A DNA stretch of 64,000 nt from Bacillus sp. Marseille-P3661 (lineage in GTDB: Bacteria; Bacillota; Bacilli; Bacillales; Bacillaceae_J), in contig NZ_LT965955.1 of NCBI RefSeq assembly GCF_900240995.1, forward strand, positions 384,638 to 448,637. Reading direction: 5' to 3'. Made by a program: the position numbers and the translations under genes. Shown here one piece after another: positions 26,675 through 60,517 of this stretch. How positions within the stretch are numbered: position 1 is the stretch's first letter; every line of letters starts with the position of its first letter. The notes beneath the pieces were generated by a model. It saw nothing but the letters and a program-made list of their open reading frames with translations. It had not been told where the DNA came from and did not search any database.

Positions 26675-28330
26675 TTGAGAATTTCCAGTTCTCTAATTGT
26701 CTTACTCTTTTTTCTATTTTGCCAATTCCTTTATCCGGTTGAAATAAGCGGTAAGGGAAAAGTCGTACATATAGACCAGGAAGAATCGACAGTTAGCAAG
26801 GGGAACGCAAAAGGCTATATTGTGAAGTATAAAGCACCGAAATATTCGAGAATGTCATTGTCGAGCAGAGGTCAATTTAAGAACATATCATTTACTTCGA
26901 AAGATGAAGAAAAACAGAAACTTGAAGATCTACTTAATGACCCAACTGTTGAGTATGTTGTTCCTAACTACATAAGAACAACGCAAACATATAATGACCC
27001 ACTATACAAGGATCAATGGGCTATTCCAGCTATTAACTTAGATGATATACAAACAATAGACTTAAAGAATGATATAGTTGTGGCTGTCTTGGATACAGGG
27101 GTGGATTGTTCACATGAAGATCTTATTAATAGGTGTGTAGCTGGATATGATTTTGTAAATTTAGATACGGACCCAAGTGATGATTCTGCAGCAAGTCATG
27201 GAACGATGGTTGCTGGAATCATTTCTGCGGTTTCAAATAATAATACAGGAATAGTTGGGAGTGCACAAAATGCAAGTATCATGCCATTAAAGGTATTGGA
27301 TAAATACGGAAATGGCGATGATGCAACGATTATTCAAGCTATTCACTATGCAGCAGATTATGGAGCTGACATCATTAACTTAAGCTTAGGTGGTCCCGAG
27401 TTTTCAGAAGCTCTATGGGATGCAGTTAAATATGCCTACAATCACGGAGTGACTGTTGTTGCTGCATCTGGTAACAAAGGCAGATCCAGCGTGGACTATC
27501 CTGCAGGCTACCCAGAAGTAATGGCGGTTGGCAGTTTAAGCTCAAATGGATATAGATCGACATTTTCAAACTTTGGTCCTGCACTTGATCTAGTAGCACC
27601 TGGGGCAAATGTGATGACAACAGCAAGGTTTAGTGGCTATAAATTTGGAAGTGGGACATCTTTTTCATCTCCATATATAGCTGCAGCAGCAGCGATTATT
27701 AAGGGACAGCGTGGGGAGATTTCTCCGTCCGAAATAATGTGGGTTCTTGAAAAAGGCTCAACTGACCTAGGAATAGCAAACAGGGATAACGAGTATGGAT
27801 ATGGTGGGCTAAATCTATTAACAGCAACTATAGATCAGTCAAAACCTAATAGCATAGAGGAGCCAAATGAATCTATAGGTACCGCTTTTCCTCTAGAATA
27901 TGAACAAATCTATAATTTTAGTTTACAACAACCTAATGATGAAGATTGGTATAGGTTTGATATAAACTCGGGAGAATCATTGAAACTACAGGTATCGATG
28001 CCAGAGGACAATCTTCAAACTGATCTAGCAATTGTAAACTCTAGCGGAGAAATCGTTAATCAGATTACTACCTCTGATAAAAGTTTAATAAGTCTTCCTT
28101 TAAAGAAAGGTACATATACTATTAGGCTGAAAGAAAGGTATGGACATTGGTCCAAAGAAAACTATTCATTGCAATTAAGCAAGAATACAATTGACTTTAA
28201 CTTAGATCAAGAGATTGATATAAAAGACATTATTTTAGCTTCGAAAAAATTAGATTCTGACACAGAAATAAACTCAACGAATGACATAAAAAATGTGATT
28301 TCCCATTATGGTTATATATACCCAAAGTAA
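26675..28330 (+). CDS. Secreted subtilisin-like (S8) serine protease with PPC and degenerate dockerin domain
   Basis: About 551 residues. A signal peptide (RISSSLIVLLFFLFCQFLYP) is followed by an inhibitor-I9-like propeptide (about 25-110, ending VEYVVPNYI) and the S8 catalytic domain with D140 (VLDTGVD), H175 (SHGT) and S329 (GTSFSSP), so the triad is intact. Residues about 390-490 form a PPC-type beta domain (DEDWYRFDINSGESLKLQV). The last 50 residues (DFNLDQEIDIKDIILA and a shorter second unit ending IKNVISHYG) look like a dockerin whose first calcium loop is kept and whose second is eroded. The TTG start at 26675 follows TGGAGG by eight bases; an upstream in-frame TTG at 26639 lacks a ribosome binding site. 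The next gene begins 88 bases later and is probably cotranscribed. Confidence 0.87.
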   Translation: MRISSSLIVLLFFLFCQFLYPVEISGKGKVVHIDQEESTVSKGNAKGYIVKYKAPKYSRMSLSSRGQFKNISFTSKDEEKQKLEDLLNDPTVEYVVPNYIRTTQTYNDPLYKDQWAIPAINLDDIQTIDLKNDIVVAVLDTGVDCSHEDLINRCVAGYDFVNLDTDPSDDSAASHGTMVAGIISAVSNNNTGIVGSAQNASIMPLKVLDKYGNGDDATIIQAIHYAADYGADIINLSLGGPEFSEALWDAVKYAYNHGVTVVAASGNKGRSSVDYPAGYPEVMAVGSLSSNGYRSTFSNFGPALDLVAPGANVMTTARFSGYKFGSGTSFSSPYIAAAAAIIKGQRGEISPSEIMWVLEKGSTDLGIANRDNEYGYGGLNLLTATIDQSKPNSIEEPNESIGTAFPLEYEQIYNFSLQQPNDEDWYRFDINSGESLKLQVSMPEDNLQTDLAIVNSSGEIVNQITTSDKSLISLPLKKGTYTIRLKERYGHWSKENYSLQLSKNTIDFNLDQEIDIKDIILASKKLDSDTEINSTNDIKNVISHYGYIYPK

Positions 28331-28418
28331 TGTTTCTAAAAAATGTGGAGTGGAGGCGATGGTTTAAAATAATTATCAAAAATTCAACTAAATAATTTAG
28401 AAAAAAGGAGGTCTACGA

Positions 28419-31400
28419 ATGGCAAAAAAGATTGTTTTATTACTAATGGTTTTTATGTTAAACCTAGGTGTAATTGTGCCTAGTGGTGCTTTTGCAGTCG
28501 GAGAGTCTTCGTCCACAGGCAATGGAAGACACTCTTCCGAAAAACCTTCTGCAAAAGAGAGAAGTAAAAGTGAGCGAACCCAAAACTATAGTGCCAATAG
28601 CTCTGGTACATTGGTGTGGGTTGAGAGCTCTAAAAAGTTTGTTAAGGCAGGAGATACATTTTCTGTATATGTAGGTGTACAGAATGTATATGATTTATTT
28701 GGGGCTTCACTTGATATGAAGTTTAATCCTAATGAGGTAACAGCTTTAAACGTAACTCCAGGTGAGATATTTGGTGAATTAACGTCTGTTGATAGTCTTC
28801 CAGATGATTCTACAACATTTGATCGGGGTTATTTTTATAGCAAAACGGATAATGAAACAGGTGAGCTAACCTTTTTAAGCTTTTTAACGGGTAATGAACC
28901 TTCAATAAATGATGGGGGGCTTTTCGTTAAAATAGATTTCCAAGCTAATGCAGCTATTTCAACAGGGCAATTTCTAGCAACACTTACAGACTCACGTACA
29001 GCGTTTGACTCAGGGGAATATAATACGCTCATCCAACTTTCTGATTCTAATGCAGCTTCAATTTATTATGATGGAAATGCAGAATACTCCGAAGTAAATA
29101 TTACAGACGCGATTATAGCTGGAACAGTTTATGAGGAAACGACGAGTAATTTTAATATAGCAAAAGATGTATCCGTGAATTTATATAATAGTTCATCTGA
29201 ATTTGTTGATACAACTTCAGCTGATGACAATGGAAACTTCTATTTTAGTAATCCATCCATTACAGCAGGAACATATTATATAGAAGTAATAGGACAAAAT
29301 TATGAGCCGTATTTCTTTGACCTAGAGTTAACAGATACATCAACGGTGCATGAGGAACATATTTACCTTACTCCAAAAGGATTATATACGATTAATCTAA
29401 CTTGGGGAAGTTCGACGGTTACAGAGGACTTAGAGCTTGATTTACGTGTAAAAGTGCTTGACCGTTCAACTGGTGCATTTATAGACGAGATTAGTTGGAA
29501 CAATTCTGGTGCAACATATTTATCTCCATATCTAACACATCTTCAAGATACACATGGACCAAGCGGACATGAAATTGTTGCGGTTCATAGTCCAACAGAT
29601 TACTTATATGAAGTTACTGCTGTAAACTACTATGGAGAATTTTCAGCAGTAGAAGACGCTAATGTTAAAGTTACCGTTAATGATTATAATGGTGTAATTC
29701 TTGAAGAATATACTTATGATGGTGCAGCGCAAGGTAGTACATGGAGTGCTGTTCAATTTACATTTGATAGTTTAGGCGATATTCAATTACCAGATGGTGA
29801 AGGGCCACAACCACAAGATGCTGCTCTTTCTACCAATAGCATAAATGGAGATACGATTGCATTTGATATTTACGGTCAAGGGTTCTCAACTGCTCAAGAT
29901 GTTGAAGTTTGGTTATACCGTGATTATTCAAGCTACAACCAGTACTCAAGCAGTAGTTCCGAAGATCAAGAGGTTATCGAGTTAGTAAAAGAAGAAGATG
30001 GAGTCACTTCAACAGTACCGATGAAAAATCCTTCTTTAAGAACAAGCAGCGGTTATGACGATCAGGGTAGATATGCAGCAACAATTGGTGAAATTACCGA
30101 TACGTCTATTTCCGTAACAGGTGTTGAAGGTGCGAAACATGGCGATTATTTCGTAGAGGTTTATTTAGATGGTCAACATTTAACGCTTCAGAATGATCAT
30201 TTACGTTACCGTCCTGCGGGAATTTATGTGGAAGAGCTTATTAACGCTGGCAACTATCCATATGTTTTACCGCTAAATTATGATTCATATGACACTGATT
30301 ATTATCCAGCAGAGTTTCATGTTTACAATCTTCCAACAGCTTCACCAACCTTTGAGGTTGCTTTTGTAAATGCTGCTACAGGAACTGATGAGATCGTTGT
30401 CGATGGAGTAACTAGTGGTATCGGTGATCCAGGTCAATCGTATTTTACGTTTAATTTCCCTACTGATTTGTCAAAAGGGACGTACGAACCTGAAATAAGA
30501 GTCCTATCAGGTGCCGAAACATTAGCGACAATCCCACTTCCTTTAGTAATGGTTGGAGAACCATTTATAGAATGGGTAGATCTATATAAATTTCCATTGG
30601 GGGAAACTGAGTTTAGTTTTTATTTAGGAGCTAAGAATTTAAGTGGTTCTGACACTGTATCCTTAGAACTTTATCAAAGGGGCAGCACTACACCGACATT
30701 TACTGCAGTAGGGAACGTCGTGTATTCTGATTCGTATTTAACTCAAATTCGTTATAATTTCTCAAGTTTTCCTACAGGTTTACCAGAAGGCGATTATGAG
30801 CTTGTTATGAATGTAAACGGTGAAAAGAGCCTACCATATAAACTAAAAGGAACCTATAGTCCAATCTTACAGCATGTAACACCTCCTGCATATAAAGCGA
30901 ATGTCACGTCATTTTATGCATGGGTAAAAGGTTATAATATGAATTCAACTGATTTTAATGCAGAATTAGTTAATTTTTCTAATGAAATTATAGCAACAAG
31001 TCAAGAATCAGCTATAGTAGATGGCAACTATGGAAATGAAAAGTTGTTACAGTTTAAGATGACAGCTGATTCACCAATATTGTCAGGAGGTTATTTCCTG
31101 CGGATCTATGATTCTGCTGGGGAAGGAGTGACGGAGCTTTACATGAATGTTACGGAAACATTAAATGTATTTGGTTATCCATACTCCCTAAGTTACCCGG
31201 CAAGTATCGAAAATAGCTTTTATTTAAATGGTGTAAACCTTGATCAAGGAAACTGGGAATTAACATTAACAGATGCAAGTACTGGAAGTGTTGTACCTGA
31301 CGTAGTCCCAGTAACCAATGTGACAGTTGATGATTTTGGCCATGAAAAGCTAAATATCATTATTCCTGCACTATTGGAGGGTCAATATTATTTAGTAATT

Positions 31401-33872
31401 AGCAATACAGCATTATCGAATCCAATTACAATAACATTGAATGTCGGCGCAGCTACTGGGCCATTTGTACACTCCGTTCATATTGATGGACCGGATGAAG
31501 TGTTAAAGCCTTTAGCTGATTCAGCAAGCCATGAATTCATTGGAAGTGTCTTAGATCAATATGGACATGAAATGACGAATGAAGATGTGACCTGGTCAAT
31601 TGAGGAAACGGTTGAAGGTATTTCAATTGACTCAGTGACAGGAACATTAACAGTTCAAAATACGGCGGCAGCGAATTCCATCGTAACAATTAAAGCTACA
31701 TCAATCACACATCCAATGATTTATGCAACTAAGACAGTTACGATTAAAGAACAAGTTACTTCACCAATTGTTAATAGCATAGTTGTGGATGGTCCAATAA
31801 GTATTACCGTGCCACAATTAAGTAACGCAGTACAATACAATGCAACGGTTTATGATCAAGATGGAAACGTTATGTCAGGTGAACAAGTAGAGTGGTCACT
31901 TGCATACCCTGTTCAAGGTGTAAGCGTGAATAATACATCTGGTTTAGTGACTGTTCTTAATACAGCGAGTATAGGTTCATTTGAACTTATGGCTACATCG
32001 ATAACAGATTCAAGTAAGAGCGGGAATTTAGTTATCTCGTTGGTGAGTGGAATGCCTACAGATACAACACCGCCAGCAGTACCAACAGTCAATCCAGTAG
32101 ATAGTGATGATACGGTTGTAACAGGAACAGCAGAACCAGGTTCAGCAGTAAAAATAACTGTAAACGGCTATGAAATTGGCTATGACATCACCGATGGAAC
32201 TGGAGTCTATTCAGCAGCGATAGCGGCGCAAGCTACAGGTACAGAGCTAACCATAACGGCTACAGATGCAGCGGGAAATGAAAGTGAACCTGCAACGATA
32301 ATAGTTACAGAATCGACTACAAACCCTGTAGATGATACACCGCCGGCAGTGCCAACGGTAAATGCAGTGGATAGCGATGATACGGTCGTAACGGGAACAG
32401 CTGAACCAAATGCAGCAATAAAAATAAGTATTATGGGTTATGAAATAGGCTATGACTTCGCAGATGTAACAGGAGCGTTTTCAGTTGCAATTAACCCGCA
32501 AGCTGCAGGTACAGAGTTAATCATTACGGCCACAGATGCAGCAGGAAATGAAAGTGAGTCAGCATTCGTAACTGTATCGGAAGCAATTGTAAATCCGCCA
32601 GAAGATACAACACCGCCAGCTGTACCAGTGATTAATCCGGTGGATAGCGATGATACGGTCGTAACCGGAACATCAGAACCTGAATCTACTTTAGTTGTAA
32701 CGGTTAATAGTCTTGTAATTGGATTTACTTTTGCTGATGAAACAGGCGCATATTCAGCTGCGATTATGCCACAAGCTGCAGGAACTGAGATCACTGTGAC
32801 TGCAAAAGATGCAACAGGAAATGAAAGTGAACCAGCAAAGATAACTGTAACAGAAGCAAATCCACCGGTGGATACGACACCACCAGCAGCACCAACAGTC
32901 AATCCGGTAGATAGCGATGATACGGTTGTAACGGGAATGGCAGAAGCTGAATCTACAATAAAAGTAACCGTTTCGGGTAGTGTGATCGCAACGGGAACAG
33001 CAAATGAATATGGGGCCTTCTCAGTAGCAATTACACCACAAAATGCTGATACAGTCTTAGAAGTAACAGCAACAGACGCAGCCGAAAATGAAAGTGAGCC
33101 AGTATTTATTACCGTTAAGATAGCTGAAATAGAAACTGGCAATAATGGTGAATTTGCAAACGGAAAGATTATTGTTGATGGAAGAAATGTGAGTGGTAAA
33201 GTTAAACTTGATATAACGTATAATGAATTACCTGCCAATGTATCTGGTATTCAAATTGATATTCCTGTACCGCAAAATGCAGGGCTTAGCAATCCGGATA
33301 TTATATTAAACGAGGCCATAGGTCTAACTGAAGATGATATCCAAATAAATCAAGTTTCCAATAATGTTTATACGTTGTTAGTAGGTGGTAGTGAATTAGT
33401 GGCGAATCCATTACCTACTTCAGGTAAGATTGGTACGATTACATTCGATACAGCTTCTACTGAGAATATAGATTTAAGGTTCAATAAATTGATATTTACC
33501 TTAAAGTCTCTTGAAACGCCGCAGATTGCTGTTTCGAATGTAAGTATGGTGGTTAAATCTCTTATTCCAATACCTGAAAACCACTATGTATATGATGTGA
33601 ATAGAGATGGAAATATCGATATTACAGATGGGTCAATGATTCTTTATTGGCTTACAAATGAAATGGATATCCAAAATCAAATACCAAGTATTACTGTAAT
33701 CGACAGAAGTATAGATTATGGTGAGTTAGATGAATTGCGCTATTTCTATGACGTAAATCTTGATGGCGATATAAACGTTACAGATTACACGACGGTACTG
33801 TTCTGGCTCACAAATGAAATGGATATCCAAACTCAAAGACCACACTTTGATGGGATCCCAAATGTAAACTAA
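28419..33872 (+). CDS. Large secreted cohesin- and dockerin-containing Ig-like protein (1,817 aa)
   Basis: Residues 1-26 are a signal peptide (GAFA cleavage). Residues about 63-220 resemble a cohesin domain (VKAGDTFSVYVGVQNVYDLF, then GASLDMKFNP). Next come a carboxypeptidase-regulatory-like domain (about 225-310), a long beta-rich region to about 1010, two Big_2-like domains (about 1015-1205), and four Big_6-type Ig repeats (about 1214-1567, each with VDSDDTVVTG). A second cohesin-like domain (about 1576-1710, LPANVSGIQIDIPVPQNAG) precedes a textbook C-terminal dockerin with two calcium loops, DVNRDGNIDITD and DVNLDGDINVTD (about 1722-1811). Carrying both partners of a cohesin-dockerin pair, it could act as an adaptor scaffold. 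No catalytic domain was seen. It follows AAAGGAGG and sits between the protease and CFI-box genes. Confidence 0.88.
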   Translation: MAKKIVLLLMVFMLNLGVIVPSGAFAVGESSSTGNGRHSSEKPSAKERSKSERTQNYSANSSGTLVWVESSKKFVKAGDTFSVYVGVQNVYDLFGASLDMKFNPNEVTALNVTPGEIFGELTSVDSLPDDSTTFDRGYFYSKTDNETGELTFLSFLTGNEPSINDGGLFVKIDFQANAAISTGQFLATLTDSRTAFDSGEYNTLIQLSDSNAASIYYDGNAEYSEVNITDAIIAGTVYEETTSNFNIAKDVSVNLYNSSSEFVDTTSADDNGNFYFSNPSITAGTYYIEVIGQNYEPYFFDLELTDTSTVHEEHIYLTPKGLYTINLTWGSSTVTEDLELDLRVKVLDRSTGAFIDEISWNNSGATYLSPYLTHLQDTHGPSGHEIVAVHSPTDYLYEVTAVNYYGEFSAVEDANVKVTVNDYNGVILEEYTYDGAAQGSTWSAVQFTFDSLGDIQLPDGEGPQPQDAALSTNSINGDTIAFDIYGQGFSTAQDVEVWLYRDYSSYNQYSSSSSEDQEVIELVKEEDGVTSTVPMKNPSLRTSSGYDDQGRYAATIGEITDTSISVTGVEGAKHGDYFVEVYLDGQHLTLQNDHLRYRPAGIYVEELINAGNYPYVLPLNYDSYDTDYYPAEFHVYNLPTASPTFEVAFVNAATGTDEIVVDGVTSGIGDPGQSYFTFNFPTDLSKGTYEPEIRVLSGAETLATIPLPLVMVGEPFIEWVDLYKFPLGETEFSFYLGAKNLSGSDTVSLELYQRGSTTPTFTAVGNVVYSDSYLTQIRYNFSSFPTGLPEGDYELVMNVNGEKSLPYKLKGTYSPILQHVTPPAYKANVTSFYAWVKGYNMNSTDFNAELVNFSNEIIATSQESAIVDGNYGNEKLLQFKMTADSPILSGGYFLRIYDSAGEGVTELYMNVTETLNVFGYPYSLSYPASIENSFYLNGVNLDQGNWELTLTDASTGSVVPDVVPVTNVTVDDFGHEKLNIIIPALLEGQYYLVISNTALSNPITITLNVGAATGPFVHSVHIDGPDEVLKPLADSASHEFIGSVLDQYGHEMTNEDVTWSIEETVEGISIDSVTGTLTVQNTAAANSIVTIKATSITHPMIYATKTVTIKEQVTSPIVNSIVVDGPISITVPQLSNAVQYNATVYDQDGNVMSGEQVEWSLAYPVQGVSVNNTSGLVTVLNTASIGSFELMATSITDSSKSGNLVISLVSGMPTDTTPPAVPTVNPVDSDDTVVTGTAEPGSAVKITVNGYEIGYDITDGTGVYSAAIAAQATGTELTITATDAAGNESEPATIIVTESTTNPVDDTPPAVPTVNAVDSDDTVVTGTAEPNAAIKISIMGYEIGYDFADVTGAFSVAINPQAAGTELIITATDAAGNESESAFVTVSEAIVNPPEDTTPPAVPVINPVDSDDTVVTGTSEPESTLVVTVNSLVIGFTFADETGAYSAAIMPQAAGTEITVTAKDATGNESEPAKITVTEANPPVDTTPPAAPTVNPVDSDDTVVTGMAEAESTIKVTVSGSVIATGTANEYGAFSVAITPQNADTVLEVTATDAAENESEPVFITVKIAEIETGNNGEFANGKIIVDGRNVSGKVKLDITYNELPANVSGIQIDIPVPQNAGLSNPDIILNEAIGLTEDDIQINQVSNNVYTLLVGGSELVANPLPTSGKIGTITFDTASTENIDLRFNKLIFTLKSLETPQIAVSNVSMVVKSLIPIPENHYVYDVNRDGNIDITDGSMILYWLTNEMDIQNQIPSITVIDRSIDYGELDELRYFYDVNLDGDINVTDYTTVLFWLTNEMDIQTQRPHFDGIPNVN

Positions 33873-33878
33873 TGGATA

Positions 33879-33907
33879 AGAGAGCTTAAGTGTTGCTTAA
33901 GCTCTCT
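33879..33907 (+). promoter_or_regulatory. Perfect intercistronic hairpin without T-run
   Basis: AGAGAGCTTAAG pairs perfectly with CTTAAGCTCTCT across 5 bases. Because no T-run follows and the next ribosome binding site is about 15 bases on, it may stabilise or partly terminate the operon mRNA. Confidence 0.55.
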
Positions 33908-33932
33908 GTCAAATTGTAATGGGAGGAAAAAA

Positions 33933-35324
33933 ATGAAACCAATTAGAATGTACCTTGCCATTATTTTAGCGTTTTTTATATGTAGTCCAATCGTACACAC
34001 TGCAAGTGCAGCGAACGATATTGTCGTAACAGAGAAGACAATTAACGACATTCTAACAATAACCGGTAAAAATGATGGAGAAACTTTAGAACTTAACTTC
34101 AAATACAATAATTTAGCTGGAGAATTTACGGCAGCACAAATAGAAGTGAATTCAAATTCAAAGATGAATATGGATGGTACCTTTACGATTGGTGCGAATC
34201 TTGAGAGTGGAGATATCCAAAGTAGCCAAATAGTGGATACAGTTTATCAAGTAATAATAAGTGGATCTCGGTTAACGAAAACACCATATCCAGGGGGCAA
34301 ATCAGGCGAAATTGGCACGATTCGTTTTCAGATGTCTGAACCTGGTGATGTGGCAATTGAATTTAAATCACTCATTGTTAATCAAAGGTCACTATCGAAT
34401 GCCGCGCCGGTTAACATAAATGATCAGGATAATTATGTAGTCAATTTTCCAGGTCCATCTGCAAGTGGAGGAGATACAACACCACCATCACCACCAACTG
34501 TAAATCCAGTGGATAGCGATGATACGGTCGTAACTGGAACCGCAGAAGCGGGTTCAACTGTAAAAGTTAGTGTGAATGGAACAATAATTGGGACAGGTGC
34601 AGCTACATCAGCTCAATCATATTCGGTATCTATTCCAGCTCAAAACGCAGGCACAGAATTAGCTGTAACCGCAACGGATGCTGCTAACAACGCAAGTCAA
34701 CCGACAATGATTGTAGTGTCAGATGCAACACCGGAAGTGACATATACTATTACAGTTGTTCCAGTAGTTGCAACGGATTCTAAAGTTTCAGGGCTTATTC
34801 AGGTTGAAGGATTGGCTGCGTTACCTACAGGATTATCAGTTCAGCTAAAGCAAGGGAATAGCTCGTTAGGAAATGGAAATGTTAATCAAGATGGATCATT
34901 TGAAATACCTGTATCAAGCAATCTTGTTGCCGGAGCGTACAAGGTAGAGCTTCTTAATGCAGCTAAGGAAAAGTTAGCTGAAAATTCATTTGAGGTATTA
35001 GTGGATGAATGTTTCATTGCAACAGCATCTTTTGGTTCAAAATTTGAACCATCGGTTACATTGCTGCGTAATTTCCGTGATGATGTACTATTACAATCGA
35101 CTGCAGGGGAAACGTTTGTTAAATTCTATTATAGCCATTCACCAAAGGTCGCAAATGTAATAGCGGATAGTGACACCTTAAAGACTGTTACGCGAGTTGC
35201 TCTTACTCCAGTAATTGCAGCAGTATACTTAACATATAATCCTGTATGGATTGTGTTATTGGTAGTGGCTTTTGCTGCTCTATGGATGGTAAGACGTAAT
35301 CGTAGAAGTAATATTCAAGCATAA
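33933..35324 (+). CDS. Cohesin-like, Ig-like protein with CFI-box C-terminal region and membrane anchor
   Basis: A 463-residue exported protein. Signal peptide about 1-27 (HTASAA). Residues about 28-175 form a cohesin-like beta-sandwich (LELNFKYNNLAGEFTAAQIE, then SGEIGTIRFQM) similar to the second cohesin-like domain of the preceding protein. A Big_6 repeat (about 184-268) shares the VNPVDSDDTVVTGTAE word with that protein. After another beta domain, C360 opens CFIATASFGSKFEPSVTLLR, the CFI-box found in a family of C-terminal regions of exported proteins. The protein ends with a helix (VWIVLLVVAFAALWMV) and the basic tail RRNRRSN, so it should be fixed in the membrane with the cohesin outside. 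It starts after GGGAGG and ends at a short terminator. The CFI-box function is not known. Confidence 0.85.
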   Translation: MKPIRMYLAIILAFFICSPIVHTASAANDIVVTEKTINDILTITGKNDGETLELNFKYNNLAGEFTAAQIEVNSNSKMNMDGTFTIGANLESGDIQSSQIVDTVYQVIISGSRLTKTPYPGGKSGEIGTIRFQMSEPGDVAIEFKSLIVNQRSLSNAAPVNINDQDNYVVNFPGPSASGGDTTPPSPPTVNPVDSDDTVVTGTAEAGSTVKVSVNGTIIGTGAATSAQSYSVSIPAQNAGTELAVTATDAANNASQPTMIVVSDATPEVTYTITVVPVVATDSKVSGLIQVEGLAALPTGLSVQLKQGNSSLGNGNVNQDGSFEIPVSSNLVAGAYKVELLNAAKEKLAENSFEVLVDECFIATASFGSKFEPSVTLLRNFRDDVLLQSTAGETFVKFYYSHSPKVANVIADSDTLKTVTRVALTPVIAAVYLTYNPVWIVLLVVAFAALWMVRRNRRSNIQA

Positions 35325-36155: not shown

Positions 36156-36184
36156 TTGACAATTACAGTATTCGGTAATATACT
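36156..36184 (+). promoter_or_regulatory. Strong sigma-A promoter (P1) of the S-layer-like gene
   Basis: TTGACA (36156-36161), 17 bases, TATACT (36179-36184): a perfect -35, ideal spacing and a 5/6 -10. Predicted leader of about 140 nt. Confidence 0.7.
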
Positions 36185-36331: not shown

Positions 36332-38539
36332 ATGAATAAAGGTTTAAAAATCACTACTTCTGCAGCATTATTAGCTGGTGTAGTTGCTCCTGTAGCAGTA
36401 TCTTCAGTTGACGCAGCAGCTAGCACAGCATCAATCTCATCTTTAACAGTTCCAACAGTAAAGGCTACAACTGCTCAAACTACTGGTGTAGTTAAGATCG
36501 TTGTTCCTGGTGGAGCTAGAACATCTGGTGAAACATTAATCTTAGATTTAGGTGACGCTAAGATCGCAGGATTCAGTACAGTTGGTGCTGCTAACGTAGG
36601 TACAGTAGGTACTACTCAATCTCCATCTGGAGTAACTACACAACCAACTGTTGACCTTCAACTTAACGAAGATTCAACATTCACAGCATCTACAGATGTT
36701 TCTGTAAGTGCAGAAGAAAAGAAAGTTAAAATTCAATTCAACACAGATGTAGCTTATACAAGCGAAGCTGTATTATATGTTGAACTTAAAAATCTAGATA
36801 TGACAGATGTAGCATCTGGTGAATATAAAGTTAAATTATCAGCATCACCTAACAGTGGTCTTCCAACAGGCGATGTAACTGTTGCTAACGTATTTGGTGA
36901 AGATGAAGATAAAGTTACTGTAACTTCAGGATCATTAGATACACACAACAGCACATTTGAATTCAAATTAGGTTTCAAAGAAGATTCTTTAAAATCTATC
37001 AAGGCTGGCGACTATGTTAAAGTTAAATTACCAGCTGGTTACAAGTGGACTACAGCATCAAATTCAAGCATTGGTTTCAGCAAAGTCTATGGTGATACTT
37101 TCACAACTAGTCAATTCACTGTAACTCCTGAAAGTGATGAGCGAGTATTAAAAATTGAATTCACAACTGATACAACTGTATCTTCAAACTTCGAAATCTC
37201 AAACTTACGTTTCTTAGTAGATGATCAAGATCTAGCTAAAAACGGCGAAATCATTGCTGATATCGATGCAGAAGGTTTTGATATCGGTGTATCTGAAATT
37301 AAAGTTGGAACTTACGGTCAATTTGGAACAACTATCTCAGCTAAAGATGATGAAAAAGTTGTAGTTTCTGGTCAAACTGATCAAAAAGTAAACGATATTA
37401 CTATTAAAGAATCAATTAAAGAATCATTAGTTGCTGGTAGAACAGTAGTTATCGAATTACCAGACGGCGTTAAATTTACTGATGTTGACACTAACACAAT
37501 CACTGATAACGGTGTAACATTAAATGGAAATACTTCAATTTCTTCAGCTAAAGACAAGTTAACTTTAACAGTTAGTGGTCAATCTTCAAAAGCTGCTGAA
37601 CTTAAGATCAAAGGATTGAAAGTATCTGCAAAAGCTGGATTCACTGGCGATGTTATCGCTAAGATCTCTGGTACTGCAGGTGTTGAAGGCGAAGTTAAGA
37701 TTGCTGAAGCTAAGCCTGCTGTAACTGCAACAGTTGAAAAGGCTAATGATGTTATCATCGGTCTTGGAGCACAAAAAGTTGCTGACATCGAAATCACAGA
37801 GTCTGTTAAAGAAGCTTTCTTAAACACAACATCTGGTACAGTTCAATTAGTATTACCAGAAGGCGTACACTTCGAAAAACTTCCTACTCTTGAAGTTGAT
37901 GGCGACTTAGACCTTGACGATGTAAACTGGGGTTCTGATAAGAGCACAGTAACATTCGATGTTGATGCACAATCTATTAAAGCTAGCAAAATCACAGTTA
38001 AAGACGTAAGCCTACGCGTTTACCGTGATGTTCCAGAAGGAAACATCGAGTTATCAATCAAAGGTGGAGATCTTGTAAACAATACTGCAGACTTCACTGC
38101 TAATGATGACACAGCTGCTAAAGTTGTTATCGCTCGCGTTGCAACTCCAGCTGAAGGTAAAGGTCTTGCTGGTGAAGTAGTATTCACAGTTGGCGCTACA
38201 ACTTATGTTGCTAATGGCGTTGAAAAGACTATGGATGTTGCTCCATTCATCGAAGGTGGACGTTCTTACATGCCAATCCGTTATGTAGCTGAAGCTGTAG
38301 GTGCAGATTTCATCACTTGGGATCAAGCAACTCAAACTGCTACAATTATGAAAGGCGACCGTGTAGTTCAACTTACTGCTGGTAGCAAGGCATTAAAAGT
38401 TAACGGTGCATCAATCTCTATGGATGCTGCTGCACAAGTTAAAGAAGGCCGTACAGTTCTTCCTGTTCGTTTTGTAGGTCAAGCTTTAGGTGCAAACGTT
38501 GACTGGAACGAAGCTGATCAAACAGTAACAGTAAAATAA
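36332..38539 (+). CDS. S-layer-like surface protein with C-terminal stalk (copper amine oxidase N-like) domains
   Basis: A 735-residue exported protein. Residues 1-30 are a signal peptide (LAGVVAPVAVSSVDAAA). Residues about 31-610 are several beta-rich repeats of similar form (for example DDEKVVVSGQTDQKVNDITI and later ANDVIIGLGAQKVADIEI). Residues about 615-735 hold a stalk-type domain pair named after copper amine oxidase N-termini: GGRSYMPIRYVAEAVGADFI and EGRTVLPVRFVGQALGANVD. No enzyme domain is present, so the oxidase name does not describe its function. The strong promoter, long leader, good AGGGAGG site (nine bases before ATG) and own terminator suggest abundant expression, as for an S-layer subunit. 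It lies directly upstream of the glycan locus and could be its glycosylation target (inference). Confidence 0.82.
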   Translation: MNKGLKITTSAALLAGVVAPVAVSSVDAAASTASISSLTVPTVKATTAQTTGVVKIVVPGGARTSGETLILDLGDAKIAGFSTVGAANVGTVGTTQSPSGVTTQPTVDLQLNEDSTFTASTDVSVSAEEKKVKIQFNTDVAYTSEAVLYVELKNLDMTDVASGEYKVKLSASPNSGLPTGDVTVANVFGEDEDKVTVTSGSLDTHNSTFEFKLGFKEDSLKSIKAGDYVKVKLPAGYKWTTASNSSIGFSKVYGDTFTTSQFTVTPESDERVLKIEFTTDTTVSSNFEISNLRFLVDDQDLAKNGEIIADIDAEGFDIGVSEIKVGTYGQFGTTISAKDDEKVVVSGQTDQKVNDITIKESIKESLVAGRTVVIELPDGVKFTDVDTNTITDNGVTLNGNTSISSAKDKLTLTVSGQSSKAAELKIKGLKVSAKAGFTGDVIAKISGTAGVEGEVKIAEAKPAVTATVEKANDVIIGLGAQKVADIEITESVKEAFLNTTSGTVQLVLPEGVHFEKLPTLEVDGDLDLDDVNWGSDKSTVTFDVDAQSIKASKITVKDVSLRVYRDVPEGNIELSIKGGDLVNNTADFTANDDTAAKVVIARVATPAEGKGLAGEVVFTVGATTYVANGVEKTMDVAPFIEGGRSYMPIRYVAEAVGADFITWDQATQTATIMKGDRVVQLTAGSKALKVNGASISMDAAAQVKEGRTVLPVRFVGQALGANVDWNEADQTVTVK

Positions 38540-38726: not shown

Positions 38727-39203
38727 ATGAGAAATAGTTTAGTAAATTATATTTTCTTTGCAATGATCGGTTTTATTATCCTCATTATTATAATCAGTAA
38801 TACACAAGCTAAAAACCAAAACGAAGTGTTTTTAGATGATTTTAAGACTTACAGTACGGCCCTTAATTTATTAAGTGAGGAAGACTATGAAAGAAGTAAA
38901 AACATGCTGACACAGTTATACGATAAGTATCCAGATAACTATACTATTAGCTATTCATTGGCTAAAGCGTATGTTATGTTAGATGATTATCAAGAAGCAG
39001 CTCGTTTGTATGAAGAAGCGATTGAAAAGTTTCCTTTTTTTCAACTAGATCCAGATTATTGCTCTGAATATGGTAAAACTCTTTTGCAGCTAAATGAGAA
39101 GGAAAAGGGCAAGGCGTATTTGTTAAAAGCAAGAGAATTATTCACTGAGTTTGGACAAGAAAAAGAAGCAAATGAAATTACTAAGGTTCTAAATAGTATT
39201 TAA
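38727..39203 (+). CDS. Membrane-anchored tetratricopeptide repeat protein
   Basis: A 158-residue protein with one N-terminal membrane helix (IFFAMIGFIILIIIISN, about 9-25) and two or three TPR units outside or inside the membrane (SYSLAKAYVMLDDYQEAARL, YEEAIEKFPFF, YGKTLLQLNEKEKGKAYLL). TPRs mediate protein-protein contact. It is the first gene of the locus and its stop is 19 bases from the next start, so the two are co-transcribed. Proteins of the ligase/polymerase family encoded next often carry a TPR domain fused at their C-terminus; here it appears as a separate gene. A shared complex is an inference. Confidence 0.8.
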   Translation: MRNSLVNYIFFAMIGFIILIIIISNTQAKNQNEVFLDDFKTYSTALNLLSEEDYERSKNMLTQLYDKYPDNYTISYSLAKAYVMLDDYQEAARLYEEAIEKFPFFQLDPDYCSEYGKTLLQLNEKEKGKAYLLKARELFTEFGQEKEANEITKVLNSI

Positions 39204-39222
39204 AGAAGGAGGTTTAAAAAGG

Positions 39223-40824
39223 ATGTATTATCAGAAACGATACAAGTCATACGACAAATCATATAGCATAAAGTTAGATCGAGATACGAAAGAAGATTCT
39301 TTCGAATCTAGTAAAGTTGATAAATTACTTTTTATAATGTTTGGCATTATATTATTAGTAGTACCGATCATCATGTTTTCAAGTGTTCGATTATTTATAA
39401 GTCCTGAAATTGATTTAGCAGCATCACTTCAAACTGGAGAAAAATATAATCTTTTCGACTTCTATAAGTATGTTTCATTAGTTATCTTCACGATAGGAAC
39501 CGTATTAATCTTTCTATATAAATTATTATTTCTTAATAATCAATTGAAACCCACAATGTTTAACATCATATTCGGGGTATTAGCTGTTTTTATTTTACTA
39601 TCATTGTTATTCTCCCCATATAAAACGATTGCTCTTCATGGAATGTATACAAGATATGAAGGGGCAATAACCTATCTTTGTTATATTATTTTAGCATTTA
39701 TTGCTGCAAATATAGTCTTTAATAAAGACAAAATGAAGTGGCTCTTTTATATGCTAATTCCATTTATATTGATCAATACAACCTTAATTCTACTTGATTT
39801 CTTCGGCGTTAATATCTTAGATTTTAAATGGGTTCAGGATTTTCTGTTTTCATCTATTGAAGGTGCAAACATGAACAGTGATTCAAAAATATTATCGACC
39901 TTATCAAACCCGAACTATGTCAGTGGTGTTGGAGCAATCATAACTGTTTTATTCTTTTACCTAGGCTTATTTGAAAGCCGATTCTTGGCTAGCTTTATAT
40001 ATTATATTTTTGCTCTGTTAGGGTTTGTGTTAGTCATTACAAGCTTTTCTACAAGCGGCTTTTTAACATTAATAGCAACATTTCCAATTACATTAATTCT
40101 TGCATTACTCCTATTTAAAAATAGTATAAAGAAACCAGTGAAAGTACTATTTTTCTTTGTCGGAATGATTATTATTTATTGTGGGATGTACTTTTATAAT
40201 CCTGCAATTTGGAATGAAACGCTTGGTTTTTTTATCCCTGCAGAAAGTGAAAATACGATCCACACGGATAGCAATACTGAACAAGGAAAATCTATCGTTT
40301 CAAATGATGAAATTCAATCGGAAAGTGGTTATGCATTGGAAGAATTACCTGAACCAGCTTGGGGAGCAGGTACAGGTCGTGTATACATCTGGGAAAAAAC
40401 CGTTGAATTAGTAAAAGATAAACCTTTATTAGGATATGGATTAGATACACTACCTTTTATCTTTCCGCAGGAAGATCCAGAAAAGATAGCAAATCTTAGT
40501 ACACATTCAGTAATAGTGGATAAACCCCATAATATTTTTATAGGTCTATTATATGGTTCAGGGTTGTTGACATTACTAGCATTTTTAGCTTTTATAATAG
40601 TGCTTTTTGTACATCTAATAAAGTTTTTCATAAAACATAGAAAAACAATGGATACTAAACAAATAAGTATTGTGTATAGTATAGCGGTAGCGCTTGTTGC
40701 TTACCTAATTCAAGGGTTATTTAATGATTCTGTCATTGGTATTTCTGTGATTATTTGGATACTTTTGGGTGTGTTGATATCTGTAACAACAAATATGGAA
40801 GAACAAACCGAAAACAATAGTTAA
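39223..40824 (+). CDS. O-antigen ligase/polymerase family membrane protein (Wzy or O-oligosaccharyltransferase)
   Basis: A 533-residue polytopic protein with about 11 membrane helices. A large outer loop (about 355-425) contains GAGTGRVYIWEKTVELVKDK, PLLGYGLDT and the conserved HNIFIGLLYGSG, the Wzy_C pattern. Members either polymerise lipid-linked oligosaccharides (Wzy), ligate O-antigen (WaaL) or transfer glycans to protein (PglL, and WsfB/WsaB of S-layer glycosylation). Sequence alone does not separate these roles. Its position right behind an S-layer-like gene and a TPR gene favours glycan transfer to protein or polymerisation of that glycan. It starts after AAGGAGG at 39206. Confidence 0.85.
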   Translation: MYYQKRYKSYDKSYSIKLDRDTKEDSFESSKVDKLLFIMFGIILLVVPIIMFSSVRLFISPEIDLAASLQTGEKYNLFDFYKYVSLVIFTIGTVLIFLYKLLFLNNQLKPTMFNIIFGVLAVFILLSLLFSPYKTIALHGMYTRYEGAITYLCYIILAFIAANIVFNKDKMKWLFYMLIPFILINTTLILLDFFGVNILDFKWVQDFLFSSIEGANMNSDSKILSTLSNPNYVSGVGAIITVLFFYLGLFESRFLASFIYYIFALLGFVLVITSFSTSGFLTLIATFPITLILALLLFKNSIKKPVKVLFFFVGMIIIYCGMYFYNPAIWNETLGFFIPAESENTIHTDSNTEQGKSIVSNDEIQSESGYALEELPEPAWGAGTGRVYIWEKTVELVKDKPLLGYGLDTLPFIFPQEDPEKIANLSTHSVIVDKPHNIFIGLLYGSGLLTLLAFLAFIIVLFVHLIKFFIKHRKTMDTKQISIVYSIAVALVAYLIQGLFNDSVIGISVIIWILLGVLISVTTNMEEQTENNS

Positions 40825-40877
40825 AAGTAGTATAAAATTAAATAGTAAACGTTGGTTACAATGTTTTTTGATGAGTA

Positions 40878-40919
40878 CAATAAATGTAGAGTTATTTCCT
40901 AATAACTCTACATTTATTG
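40878..40919. promoter_or_regulatory. Perfect 19-bp palindromic hairpin between glycan genes
   Basis: CAATAAATGTAGAGTTATT (40878-40896) is followed by TCCT and its exact reverse complement (40901-40919). There is no T-run, so it is not a standard terminator. It may be a regulator site or an RNA-processing/stability element. Confidence 0.6.
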
Positions 40920-40975
40920 TATATAAACGAATTTCAATGAAAACTTTAATTATATGTAAAAGTGTGGTTAACAAA

Positions 40976-42097: not shown

Positions 42098-42157
42098 ATT
42101 TTTTCAAACGCTATCATCAGTTGTTAGTAAAGTATAGTTTTCAAGGAGTGTGCTGTA

Positions 42158-43165: not shown

Positions 43166-43257
43166 GAGAGTGAAAACGAAGCTTTCATATCATATAAAAT
43201 AAGTCTAAAGTTCTATTTTAACTAATATTTTACATCCCTGTACGATAGTAAATATGG

Positions 43258-43263
43258 TATAAT
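43258..43263 (+). promoter_or_regulatory. Candidate extended -10 promoter of the phosphoglycosyl transferase gene
   Basis: TGGTATAAT, a perfect TATAAT with a TGn extension; no good -35 at 17 bases. Confidence 0.45.
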
Positions 43264-43302
43264 AGGCAAGGAATTTAAGTATGTTAAGGAGTGCTGCTTA
43301 TT

Positions 43303-44706: not shown

Positions 44707-44730
44707 ATTAGAAACTGATATATCTTTTTT

Positions 44731-44767
44731 AAAAAATTGGTAACCTTTAAGATTACCAATTTTTTTA
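44731..44767 (+). terminator. Terminator after the phosphoglycosyl transferase gene
   Basis: AAAATTGGTAA pairs with TTACCAATTTT across a 9-base loop, then TTTTATT. Confidence 0.8.
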
Positions 44768-44924
44768 TTTATTTAGATTAGCAGAGTAATATATTCCAGT
44801 ATATTGACATTTTAGATGAATTGAGTAAAAATATTACTCGTAAAAGTCATTTGTAGATGTCTGATTAATAAGTTAACAATACCCATTTCTAAAGTTCTAG
44901 GCATCATAATAAGGAGTGGCTAGT

Positions 44925-45485: not shown

Positions 45486-45573
45486 ATATAAAATAATAAT
45501 TAAAACGTTTCACCTGCTTGCTTTTTTAAAATCTGGACATTCATAGTCCCTATTTGTAGGAGGAATCATACGA

Positions 45574-46953: not shown

Positions 46954-46954
46954 A

Positions 46955-47932: not shown

Positions 47933-48034
47933 TTTGTATTAGTATCATTAGTTCTAGCCATATATGATGTCGGAGCTATTGTTTTTTAGTTTTATCATGT
48001 TTAACAAAATAATCAGAAGTATAAGGAAATAAAA

Positions 48035-52622: not shown

Positions 52623-52635
52623 GGAAGTGTAGTCC

Positions 52636-53778: not shown

Positions 53779-53789
53779 GAGCGTATAAA

Positions 53790-56254: not shown

Positions 56255-59200
56255 ATGAGGCGGTTTGCGGCGGGTATTTTTAGTACTTTAATACTGATCC
56301 TAATGGTTCCAATGCTGGTATTTGCGTGGGACGATACGGGGCAAGGAATTGAGGTTTCAATTGAGACTGGATCTATACAAGGTAAGTTAGATAAGGTAAT
56401 TTCGACAGTAGAAGTATATCGGAATGGAGAGTTACTTGATAGGAAAGAATTGGGTGAGGACTATGGCTATATAACGACAGAAGAATTTAATTATAGTCTG
56501 CCATTTGATTATTACAGTGGTATTGGCCTATATGGCAATCCGTTTTTACCAGGTGACAGAATCGTATTATTAAACCACAACACATCAGATGCTGTTGTAA
56601 CAAAGACACCAACGATTGTATATGAGTTTACAGTTCCGAAGTTAACTTCGACTGTTACAAAAAATGAAGATGAAGGACTTACGGTAATCAATGGTGAAAC
56701 ATCACCGAATAAAACAATTGGAATTTATACGATGGAAGGATATTACGATTGGGCATTAACAGGTGAAAGTGTTGCCGATTCGAATGGTCAGTTCCAATTT
56801 AACCTTCGTCCAGGACTTGGCACAGATGAAAGCGTAAAAATACAATATGATGATAGCGTAGGAACAATAAAAGTTGCTTATAGTATTGAACGATCACATC
56901 CTGAACATGTAGAGGCTGCCATTCACGTACCTTATGGTAATGACTATCGTCACATTGTAAATCAATCTATTCCACTAAAAGTAAGAGTTCTTAACAATAA
57001 TAATGAAAACGAACTCGTCACAAATGTACAATGGTCTGTTGAATCAGAAGATGGGCAACCAACAACAGGGGCATCCGTGGACAGTAGCGGGACTTTTGCA
57101 GCGACAGCTCCAGGTGGTTATAAAGTGATTGCTATATTGTCAGATTACAATAATCAAAAGCTAGAAAATTTTATATATATTAACGCACTTGGAGAACCAA
57201 CGGAGATTTACTTTTACCCAGTAAATAATGCTTCAACGTACTCGTATTCGGTTGGTGAACCGATTGAATTTGACGTAGATTTACGGGACGAATTTTCCAA
57301 CAGATTACTTTACAATGGCGGCTTTCACTGGGAAATTGAAAAATATGATAAAAATTTGTACTACGACGATCCTAGAGATCCAGATCATGATAAATTCATT
57401 CCATCCTTTGATGCAACCATGTCAGTCGATAGGGTGTTTACCGCTTCGGCAGATGGACATTATCGAATTACATTAACATCAGATGAATATCCGGATTTAC
57501 CTCCAGCCGTATATACTGTATTAGTTGTAGGAGATTTACAAGCAGCAAAACTCGAAACAGATAAAACAATCATCAACGTAGGCGAGAGTATAGACTTAGA
57601 CTTTGGAATTTATGACTCGAATTATAACGAGCTCCCATTAGAATATAATGATGGCTACGATTTGGATAACAGCAAGTACCAATATGACTGGGTTATTGGC
57701 TATCGCAGCACTGGTTATACACATTGGGGAGCACCTAGTGATACGTATACGTATATCGATCGACCAGAAGGTGTCATTCAATTCGATAAGCCCGGAAAAT
57801 ATACGATCTTTTTCCGTGTAACTAAACAAGTGAATTATTACGCTACGGATACATGGGGCGGGCTACAATCCTATGTAGATATTGAGGTAAAAGACCCTGC
57901 ACTTGAACAAGTAAAGGATATCAGAATTACTCAGGTAGATTACCCCGAGGTAAAAAGCCCTGACTATGTTGAAAACTATGCATCATTTAAAGTAGAAGCA
58001 ATCGATGAGAATGGTGATGTAGTTCCAGGGGTAGATTTCACGTATGAAGGAAGCAATTGGTATGATAGCGTAATTGAGGCAAATGGCAATGTTAGTGTAA
58101 GAATCTATGGAATGTGGGACGGCTATTTCTTGAAGGCAACGGTTACTGATAAGCCGGAAATAACGAAAACGCATTATTTTTCCGTATTCTCACCTAATTA
58201 CGAGAATATAGGAAGTGTTGAGCTTCAGCGCGAAAGTGATAATGGACCTGATGCATCGACGATTTATACAAGATATGACCAAATTGGTTTCATTGAACAA
58301 AGTCTTCAAAGCTATCCATTAAAAATGACAGTTAAAGATATAAATGGAGAGGTGATTCCGCCTGGAGACTATAATAGTAATTACCAAGGAACAACCTATT
58401 TATATGCTGAAACATTAGATGGAAAGCCTACAGAAAATATTCAGTTTGTGAATAGCGAATTTACAGCATCGACACTTTTTTATGCGACAAAGCCTGGCGA
58501 TTATAAAATCATTGCAAAATCAGCCGAAAATCCAGAAATACAGGATGAAATGGTGATTCATGTAATCGATCGAGCACAAGCGATTAGAAGTGCTGCCATT
58601 AGCATTGACGACGAACAAAAGCCATATACGAGTGATCGTTTGAATTTTATAGGTAATGCCTATGATATCACGGGTACAGAAATTCCAAATGAGGTATTTA
58701 CATGGGCAGTATATAATGAAGATGGTTCAAAGGCCGATGATGTAATCGCAATGGAATGGGATAGTCCTGTATCATTGGATTACTATTATAAGCATTCCAT
58801 CGACTTAGTATTCCCAAGGCCAGGTCAATACAAAATTGTTGCAAAATCTACAGCCAATCCTTTAATTAAAACTTCTTATGATATTTTAATAGAAAGTAAG
58901 CCTGCATTGGCAGGGGTTAATTATCATCTATTAGATAAAAGTATTGAAGGTTATGTAAGCGAAGGAATTAACGATTTAACCATTAAGGTAATTCGTGACA
59001 ATGTAGAAATAGATTCACATGCTGTTACGATCGATTATGGTGGACATTTTTATCATTATAATTGGACAAATGAGCCACTGCCAGGAGATACCATTGTCCT
59101 AGAATATGATAATGGTTCATCAGATTCTTTCGTTATTGAAGATATTCAGGCCATTTATGATGTGAAAAACCATTCTATCGTTGGAAAAACAGAGCCTAAT

Positions 59201-60517
59201 CGAGATGTAGAAGTTTTGGTTTATGTGCCTGACGACACGCTTACTAATAAAGGGACATCTACAGAGACGGGGACATTTGAAATCGCTCTAGATACAACTG
59301 ACCAAGACACAATATTTGATTATTCTGTATCAACTATTTCCGAGGAAGGTGTGACCTTTACATCACGGTTTTATCCAGTTGAGCTACAGCTTGACACATA
59401 TTGGAGAAATTTAAATGGTTGGCTGCCTGAAGGTGTGGATAGTACGGTAACGATCACGAAATCAGATGGTACGGTTGTCGTAGACCAACATTTACTTGAT
59501 CCTAGTAATTATGGGAACTATCTGCAAGTATGGGAATTAAATGATGGAGATATCGTAACCGTAAATATCGGTGATTTCTATGAAGAATCCATTACAGTGC
59601 TAACGGAATTACCAGTCTATATAGATAATACTACGAAGACTATTTCAGGATTTATACCGGGTGATTATGATATGACCCTCAGCATTGGATGGCAACCTTA
59701 CGAAGTTGCGGTAGATGAATTAGGTTTCTTCAATTTTAGTTTTGAAGGGTTAACTGACTATAATGGTTTTCCAATTAATTCATTAACGATAAATGATTTT
59801 GATATTTATCTTGGTAATTCATTAATTGAAATGATGGTTGAACCGATTGAAGGGAATGTAGAACCACCACCTTTAGAGGGCGATTATGATCACAATGATG
59901 ACGGTGTAGTCGATGCAACGGATTTGAAAATGGTAATAGTTGAGTATGGATCAAATTCTGCTACATCTTCTACAGATATTGATTCCAATGGAACGGTTGA
60001 TATTTATGATGTTGTTCTACAAGCGATACAGCTTGGTTATTCACCAATTTCAGGAGTTTCAAGCGGCAGTGGTGGAGGAAGTTCACCAACGAATTCTGAT
60101 ACGACATATGAGTCTTCGAGTACGATAGAAGAACATGATGGTGAGACAATCATAATAGAAACGTATTCTCCAAGATCTCGACTGGAAGATAGAAATGAAC
60201 GTCGAATACCGCGTGAAGAACAAAGCACCGACGTTCAAGAAGAACCAGACAGCATTACTGACCAAGAGCAATCAGAAGTTACAGAAGAGGAAAGCGGTGA
60301 AACTACAGCAGAGATGTCGGAAATAACAGAAGAGGAGCAAAGTAGTGAATCTACGGTAAAGCAGTCGAATATGACAGAAGAGCAAAGCAATGAACCTGCT
60401 CCAGAGCAGACAGAAGTGACAGAAGAGCAATCTATACCTGAACAGTCAGATGCTGCTGTAGTTGCAGAGCAGAGTGCTGAACCTACACAGGAACATGGAG
60501 ATGTAGTTGAAGAATAG
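56255..60517 (+). CDS. Large secreted Ig-like protein with internal dockerin and acidic tail (1,420 aa)
   Basis: A signal peptide (AAGIFSTLILILMVPMLVFA, about 1-24) is followed by about 1,180 residues of beta-rich Ig-like domains, several with the form VKVEAIDENGDVVPGVDFT or the related Big-type pattern. Residues about 1209-1265 are a dockerin with two calcium loops, DHNDDGVVDATD and DIDSNGTVDIYD. Unlike most dockerins it is not C-terminal: a Gly/Ser linker (SSGSGGGSSPTN) leads to a 130-residue Glu/Gln/Ser/Thr-rich tail with repeated VTEEQS-like words. The tail could be a wall-spanning or calcium-binding extension. No catalytic domain was seen. It follows AGGGAGG by seven bases, and a terminator follows. 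It may dock on the cohesin-like proteins of 28419-35324 (inference). Confidence 0.85.
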   Translation: MRRFAAGIFSTLILILMVPMLVFAWDDTGQGIEVSIETGSIQGKLDKVISTVEVYRNGELLDRKELGEDYGYITTEEFNYSLPFDYYSGIGLYGNPFLPGDRIVLLNHNTSDAVVTKTPTIVYEFTVPKLTSTVTKNEDEGLTVINGETSPNKTIGIYTMEGYYDWALTGESVADSNGQFQFNLRPGLGTDESVKIQYDDSVGTIKVAYSIERSHPEHVEAAIHVPYGNDYRHIVNQSIPLKVRVLNNNNENELVTNVQWSVESEDGQPTTGASVDSSGTFAATAPGGYKVIAILSDYNNQKLENFIYINALGEPTEIYFYPVNNASTYSYSVGEPIEFDVDLRDEFSNRLLYNGGFHWEIEKYDKNLYYDDPRDPDHDKFIPSFDATMSVDRVFTASADGHYRITLTSDEYPDLPPAVYTVLVVGDLQAAKLETDKTIINVGESIDLDFGIYDSNYNELPLEYNDGYDLDNSKYQYDWVIGYRSTGYTHWGAPSDTYTYIDRPEGVIQFDKPGKYTIFFRVTKQVNYYATDTWGGLQSYVDIEVKDPALEQVKDIRITQVDYPEVKSPDYVENYASFKVEAIDENGDVVPGVDFTYEGSNWYDSVIEANGNVSVRIYGMWDGYFLKATVTDKPEITKTHYFSVFSPNYENIGSVELQRESDNGPDASTIYTRYDQIGFIEQSLQSYPLKMTVKDINGEVIPPGDYNSNYQGTTYLYAETLDGKPTENIQFVNSEFTASTLFYATKPGDYKIIAKSAENPEIQDEMVIHVIDRAQAIRSAAISIDDEQKPYTSDRLNFIGNAYDITGTEIPNEVFTWAVYNEDGSKADDVIAMEWDSPVSLDYYYKHSIDLVFPRPGQYKIVAKSTANPLIKTSYDILIESKPALAGVNYHLLDKSIEGYVSEGINDLTIKVIRDNVEIDSHAVTIDYGGHFYHYNWTNEPLPGDTIVLEYDNGSSDSFVIEDIQAIYDVKNHSIVGKTEPNRDVEVLVYVPDDTLTNKGTSTETGTFEIALDTTDQDTIFDYSVSTISEEGVTFTSRFYPVELQLDTYWRNLNGWLPEGVDSTVTITKSDGTVVVDQHLLDPSNYGNYLQVWELNDGDIVTVNIGDFYEESITVLTELPVYIDNTTKTISGFIPGDYDMTLSIGWQPYEVAVDELGFFNFSFEGLTDYNGFPINSLTINDFDIYLGNSLIEMMVEPIEGNVEPPPLEGDYDHNDDGVVDATDLKMVIVEYGSNSATSSTDIDSNGTVDIYDVVLQAIQLGYSPISGVSSGSGGGSSPTNSDTTYESSSTIEEHDGETIIIETYSPRSRLEDRNERRIPREEQSTDVQEEPDSITDQEQSEVTEEESGETTAEMSEITEEEQSSESTVKQSNMTEEQSNEPAPEQTEVTEEQSIPEQSDAAVVAEQSAEPTQEHGDVVEE

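Follow-up and report, generated by a model that had tools for sequence, protein, structure and literature searches.

Three adjacent open reading frames on the plus strand of a bacterium of spore-forming type raise the question of whether a cohesin-dockerin complex, familiar mostly from machines that digest cellulose, can be built on a cell surface for a task other than cellulose breakdown. An earlier note, made from the letters alone, had suggested such a complex for positions 26675-35324 of the window (the whole stretch of 64,000 nucleotides that was analysed). The three frames indeed lie side by side there and encode a subtilase, a scaffold-like protein of 1,817 residues and a protein of 463 residues with a membrane helix. 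We lean, with a little more confidence than doubt, towards reading them as a small, membrane-anchored, non-cellulosomal cohesin-dockerin scaffold that would display a protease together with adhesin-like proteins. Functions of cohesins and dockerins beyond polysaccharide degradation have been listed in genomes but seldom tested. The present set is compact, comprising three neighbouring genes, a single anchor, one unambiguous cohesin, two unambiguous dockerins and a handful of tagged proteins. The positions of all features are given in Table 1.

Table 1. Features of the cluster and of related proteins; positions refer to the window unless a contig is named.
Feature	Position	Strand	Evidence
Secreted subtilase, 551 aa: signal peptide, S8, PPC, half-dockerin tail	26675..28330	+	PF00082 8e-55, PF04151 3e-6, start site, N-terminus
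Half-dockerin tail of subtilase: one EF loop DFNLDQEIDIKD, then second helix ending ISHYG	28184..28327	+	form common to four other C-terminal tails
Secreted scaffold-like protein, 1,817 aa: cohesin, undefined region, Ig repeats, cohesin-fold domain, dockerin	28419..33872	+	
Cohesin 1, residues 73-203	28635..29027	+	PF00963, 46.9 bits as isolated domain, curated cut-off 24.1
Four Big_6 Ig repeats, spacer	32046..33128	+	PF17936 3.6e-71, 4 stretches
Cohesin-fold domain 2 (probable), sequence orphan, directly before dockerin	33156..33548	+	homology to domain 3; low-confidence model
Dockerin of 1,817-aa protein, two near-identical F-hand repeats, loops 33594-33629 and 33750-33785	33591..33797	+	PF00404
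Perfect 11-bp hairpin, loop of 5, no T-run, between scaffold and anchor genes	33880..33906	+	read from sequence
Anchor protein, 463 aa: signal peptide, cohesin-fold domain, Ig domain, CFI-box, membrane helix, basic tail	33933..35324	+	
Cohesin-fold domain 3 (predicted)	34026..34430	+	AlphaFold2, Foldseek, VIA-align
CFI_box_CTERM, then membrane helix to about 35294 and RRNRR	35010..35216	+	NF041770; hydropathy
Secreted Ig-like protein, 1,420 aa, internal dockerin, Glu/Ser-rich tail	56255..60517	+	PF00404
Dockerin of 1,420-aa protein	59885..60016	+	genome-wide profile search, 24 bits
Beta-propeller protein, 935 aa, C-terminal half-dockerin tail			tail-profile search, own genome
PPC protein, 858 aa, C-terminal half-dockerin tail			tail-profile search, own genome
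DUF5050/DUF6273 protein, 1,347 aa, C-terminal half-dockerin tail			tail-profile search, own genome
Low-complexity protein, 257 aa, C-terminal half-dockerin tail			tail-profile search, own genome
Half-dockerin gene loci	L078 (G000:C1:48000-64000) 3916-14383; L107 (G000:C1:8000-20000) 2709-6749		

Modules of the cluster and dockerin-like tails elsewhere in the genome

The 1,817-residue protein carries a cohesin near its N-terminus (cohesin 1) and a dockerin at its C-terminus. Cohesin 1 is missing from a Pfam scan of the whole protein and appears only once the domain is cut out, when it scores above the curated cut-off; in a genome-wide profile search it reached 45.1 bits (3.9e-11). The dockerin scored 26.4-28.6 bits with PF00404 (cut-off 22.9). 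Its two repeats, each with a calcium loop, are identical at 22 of 34 positions and spaced by 52 residues, and the EF-loop motif occurs twice in the protein compared with 0.006 expected from shuffles. The earlier note had described a clear dockerin and two cohesin-like domains in this protein. The dockerin was confirmed and the first of the two domains is a true Pfam cohesin; the second (domain 2, see below) has a cohesin fold only according to a low-confidence model. About 900 residues following cohesin 1 (residues ~205-1130) are without a confident domain assignment.

The protein of 463 residues ends as the earlier note had read it. Its CFI-box scored 92.9 bits with NF041770 (curated cut-off 40) and is followed, as judged by hydropathy, by a hydrophobic helix and the basic tail RRNRR. 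It is the only CFI-box protein found in its own genome, and a literature search for the CFI-box returned no paper. In a genome from another family of the order (G010), where several CFI-box matches but no cohesin were detected, a GH13-like protein (locus L012) ends in a CFI-box and a membrane helix. The CFI-box may thus also anchor enzymes directly. The hairpin between the scaffold and anchor genes is possibly an attenuator or an mRNA stabiliser and could set the relative expression of the two genes. Since promoter-like sites are no commoner in the sequence than in shuffles, an operon structure can only be inferred from gene spacing and ribosome sites.

For the subtilase, TTG at position 26675 is the better start, with GGAGG 8 bases upstream. 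A Pfam scan identified an S8 domain and a PPC domain, the D, H and S motifs are all there (DTGVD, HGTMVAG and GTSFSSP), and the N-terminus is hydrophobic. The tail has a single loop instead of two calcium-loop repeats and no match to PF00404 at E 10, and it aligns with four C-terminal tails encoded elsewhere in the same genome. A tail profile built without the subtilase ranked the 1,420-residue protein first in the window, the subtilase second and the 1,817-residue protein third; the subtilase had an E-value of 0.19 in this search, which alone is not significant. The other tail-profile searches took in the subtilase tail, so that their scores for the subtilase itself are circular. Of the dockerin-like-tailed subtilisin claimed before, the subtilase and the dockerin-like nature of its tail stand; the tail is, however, half a dockerin and not a Pfam dockerin.

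The protein at 56255, which the earlier note had also linked to the cluster, does bear a dockerin with two loops (PF00404, 25.1 bits, cut-off 22.9). With a profile of half-dockerin tails we found four further secreted-looking proteins that end in one loop and the second helix, and a protein of 215 residues with such a loop near its N-terminus. All five genes (257, 935, 858, 1,347 and 215 residues) are located within about 52 kb on another contig of the same genome. The half-dockerins are devoid of the second calcium loop. In a search of 397 genomes of the order, the complete tail turned up in this genome only; the remaining matches are for the most part confined to the loop. In total, eight proteins with a dockerin or a half-dockerin were found, and all of them start with signal-peptide-like stretches as read from the translations.

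None of these eight proteins has a carbohydrate-enzyme Pfam domain, in line with the context other than cellulose breakdown proposed at the outset. Likewise, the cluster contains no glycoside hydrolase, as the earlier note had stated, and no carbohydrate-binding module (CBM), and neither do the other window reading frames scanned. The 1,817-residue protein, with one Pfam cohesin, one probable cohesin-fold domain and no CBM, differs from a scaffoldin with several cohesins, and the anchor consists of a CFI-box and a membrane helix instead of a cellulosomal SLH or sortase signal. A cellulosome was therefore rejected: dockerin-borne carbohydrate enzymes, a CBM scaffoldin and an SLH or sortase anchor are all missing.

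Predicted fold of domains 2 and 3

Domain 2 of the 1,817-residue protein and domain 3 of the anchor protein are homologues that share 31% identity (E 3e-9). At the level of sequence neither is a Pfam cohesin: the isolated domains gave no match to PF00963 at E 10, and no Pfam family scored over its cut-off. Searches of PDB sequences with phmmer and hmmsearch, using domain 3 and a domain 2/3 profile, returned nothing. Comparison of the domain 2/3 profile with 17 cohesins by hhalign aligned a strand adjoining the cohesin start, with E-values of 0.06-0.07 that are not significant.

An AlphaFold2 model of domain 3 was calculated from a two-row alignment (pLDDT 66.8, pTM 0.65). In a Foldseek search with this model the top 19 hits were all cohesins, the best with an E-value of 5e-5. 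With VIA-align cohesins filled the first 26 rows, and superposition with a Clostridium perfringens cohesin (PDB entry 2vo8) gave Z 11.8 for 126 residues at 2.7 Å. Unrelated pilin and adhesin sandwiches reached about Z 9.5-9.6 and lower. By prediction, domain 3 thus has a cohesin fold, which agrees with the cohesin-like domain claimed for the 463-residue protein despite the lack of a PF00963 match. The earlier note had also considered that its cohesin-like domains might turn out to be unrelated beta-sandwiches; for domain 3 the structural ranking points the opposite way. The model of domain 2 has a pLDDT of 46.6 overall, and the first 22 VIA-align rows are all cohesins (Z 8.9-7.8). Domain 2 therefore probably has the same fold, albeit at low model confidence. 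In a model of domain 2 together with the dockerin, the dockerin half had a pLDDT of 22-38 and was left out of use.

The searches for relatives of these domains cover samples of genomes. Among 397 genomes of the order domains 2 and 3 were detected in their own genome only, apart from one weak match (G085, E 0.008), and among 300 genomes of the class in their own genome only. Two peptide-pattern scans of genome contigs, one for domains 2 and 3 and one for the 1,817-residue protein, detected no relative; both are weak negatives given the few patterns used. The existence of such orphan domains suggests that the Pfam profile can miss cohesin folds and that surveys may therefore undercount them.

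Proposed assembly and comparison with known systems

Based on these modules we propose the following arrangement. The 463-residue CFI-box protein would reside in the membrane and present its cohesin-fold domain outward. The 1,817-residue protein would dock onto it via the C-terminal two-repeat dockerin and be held off the surface by its Ig repeats. Its N-terminal Pfam cohesin would then capture secreted proteins tagged with a dockerin or a half-dockerin, namely the adjacent subtilase, the 1,420-residue Ig protein and probably also those tailed proteins whose genes lie elsewhere in the genome. As a result, a protease and adhesin-like proteins would be placed on the cell surface, where they would serve in attachment or the digestion of proteins and not in carbohydrate breakdown. 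Speaking against this reading are the missing second calcium loop of the half-dockerins, the non-significant profile matches of domains 2 and 3 to cohesins, the poor model of domain 2 and the location of the other half-dockerin genes on another contig. Other wirings would fit as well. In a more specific version, which we regard as rather unlikely, the scaffold has two tiers with separate couplings: at the membrane, the orphan cohesin-fold family would bind the two-repeat dockerin, and the Pfam cohesin would read the one-loop tags on at least five secreted proteins. The half-dockerin would then be a minimal C-terminal address tag of a proteolytic, non-carbohydrate surface complex. If one-loop tails do bind, the known minimum for a dockerin would be lowered and a small display tag for Gram-positive bacteria gained.

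With a cohesin near its N-terminus, a dockerin at its C-terminus and a stalk of Ig repeats in between, the 1,817-residue chain might instead polymerise head to tail into a fibre starting from the 463-residue protein, its dockerin binding the following molecule at cohesin 1 or domain 2 and the subtilase serving as processing or release enzyme. Scaffoldins, however, usually keep two cohesin-dockerin specificities apart, which prevents self-polymerisation, and a fibre would leave the half-dockerin proteins unexplained; we consider it improbable. The position of domain 2 next to the dockerin suggests another arrangement, in which this domain folds against the dockerin, as the X module does in X-dockerins, and the cohesin and dockerin modules stabilise single proteins without forming a complex. 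Subtilases with a cohesin and a dockerin in one chain, which occur in other genomes of the order, would suit such a clamp. Domain 3, the homologue of domain 2, however, sits in another protein that has no dockerin, and the two-repeat dockerin is well kept, as seen from the identity between its repeats, so that we attach little credence to this arrangement.

We consider it similarly improbable that no cohesin-dockerin pairing takes place at all, with the cohesin-fold domains being ordinary surface beta-sandwiches and the loops calcium stabilisers of adhesins. Domains 2 and 3 do lack cohesin sequence signatures, and the Z of 9.5 reached by unrelated pilin and adhesin sandwiches against the domain 3 model is in line with this idea. 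On the other hand, cohesin 1 is a clear Pfam cohesin with a real dockerin on the same protein, and cohesins alone occupy the top 26 rows of the structural ranking for domain 3.

The membrane-anchored scaffold favoured here has counterparts within the order. Of the 397 genomes, 54 contain cohesin matches with E-values of 0.01 or lower. In one of them a subtilase with cohesin and dockerin adjoins a cohesin-SLH gene (L082), in another locus a nuclease/phosphoesterase-type protein with cohesin and dockerin does so (L084), and at three further loci (L088, L089 and L090) dockerin genes adjoin cohesin genes. The combination of an enzyme with an anchored cohesin thus recurs in the order. L082 resembles the present cluster in that an S8 protease, a dockerin and an anchored cohesin are encoded by neighbouring genes; there, however, cohesin and dockerin are part of the protease and the anchor is of the SLH type, whereas here the two modules belong to a scaffold distinct from the protease, and the anchor is a membrane helix. 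A genome of the same family (G003) contains a three-cohesin reading frame of at least 2,247 residues that is truncated by the end of the contig (L059, G003:C122:18000-31228, 378-13227). Its neighbours, as read from translations, are secA-like, O-antigen-ligase-like, TPR-like and glycosyltransferase genes.

The literature, too, already describes cohesin-dockerin pairing as a means of displaying enzymes for purposes other than cellulose breakdown. Non-cellulosomal cohesin-dockerin systems were treated by Peer et al. 2009 (as cited in PMC2930009 and PMC9012536), and archaeal scaffoldin-like proteins are described in PMC9012536. The cluster shares with the known non-cellulosomal systems the presence of cohesins and dockerins on secreted proteins, the absence of dockerin-bearing cellulases, scaffold-like proteins with both modules and attachment to the surface. 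It differs from them in the CFI-box membrane anchor, the orphan cohesin-fold family and the half-dockerin tails on protease, propeller and PPC proteins. The closest solved folds to domain 3 come from the non-cellulosomal complexes of Clostridium perfringens (PMC12997984; PDB entries 2vo8 and 2jh2). In that organism single cohesins are found on the secreted proteins themselves, some of which are glycoside hydrolases, whereas our cluster has no carbohydrate enzyme and a separate anchor.

According to the account of Chen et al. 2024 given in PMC12484212, an S8 protease of C. thermocellum has a double dockerin with a preference for a cell-bound scaffoldin. It is likewise a subtilase tied to a cell-bound cohesin; in that account, however, it has full dockerins and is part of a cellulosome. 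The Limousia mucinolysome (PMC12997984) is also a cohesin-dockerin machine not directed at cellulose and includes dockerin-bearing peptidases, but it consists mostly of carbohydrate enzymes and uses a sortase anchor. Findings that go beyond the earlier note are the four further secreted-looking proteins with half-dockerin tails, encoded elsewhere in the genome, and the absence of carbohydrate enzymes among the dockerin-bearing proteins found. The CFI-box anchor and the shortened dockerins are unusual among non-cellulosic uses.

Neighbouring genes and the surface layer

Upstream of the cluster we identified mbl by scanning and, from translations, two flagellar rod/hook-type genes and a fabZ-like gene. 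Farther away, positions 3357-18125 encode a protein of 4,922 residues with alternating Ig-type repeats and three C-terminal SLH domains. Downstream of the cluster follow an Ig/stalk-domain protein of 735 residues and then a glycan cluster. The 735-residue protein (36332-38539) comprises Big_8 and Cu_amine_oxidN1 'stalk' domains and no SLH domains, and a strong promoter-like site (36156-36184, 11 of 12) lies upstream of its gene. It is a candidate for the major surface-layer protein.

The earlier note had offered S-layer processing or the building of a proteinaceous coat as the function of the complex. Long homologues of the 735-residue protein are present in several genomes of the family; five of these six homologue-bearing genomes are without Pfam cohesins and all are without the 463-residue anchor protein. 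Because relatives possess the homologue without the anchor, the cluster is not generally needed for that layer, and we dropped S-layer processing as an explanation; coat building is likewise unsupported.

The glycan cluster (38727-55730) adjoins the 735-residue gene. It encodes a TPR protein, a Wzy_C ligase, GalE, a sugar-phosphate transferase, a nucleotide-sugar dehydrogenase, a MurJ-type flippase, glycosyltransferases and an asparagine-synthase-like protein, and may glycosylate the putative surface protein next to it.
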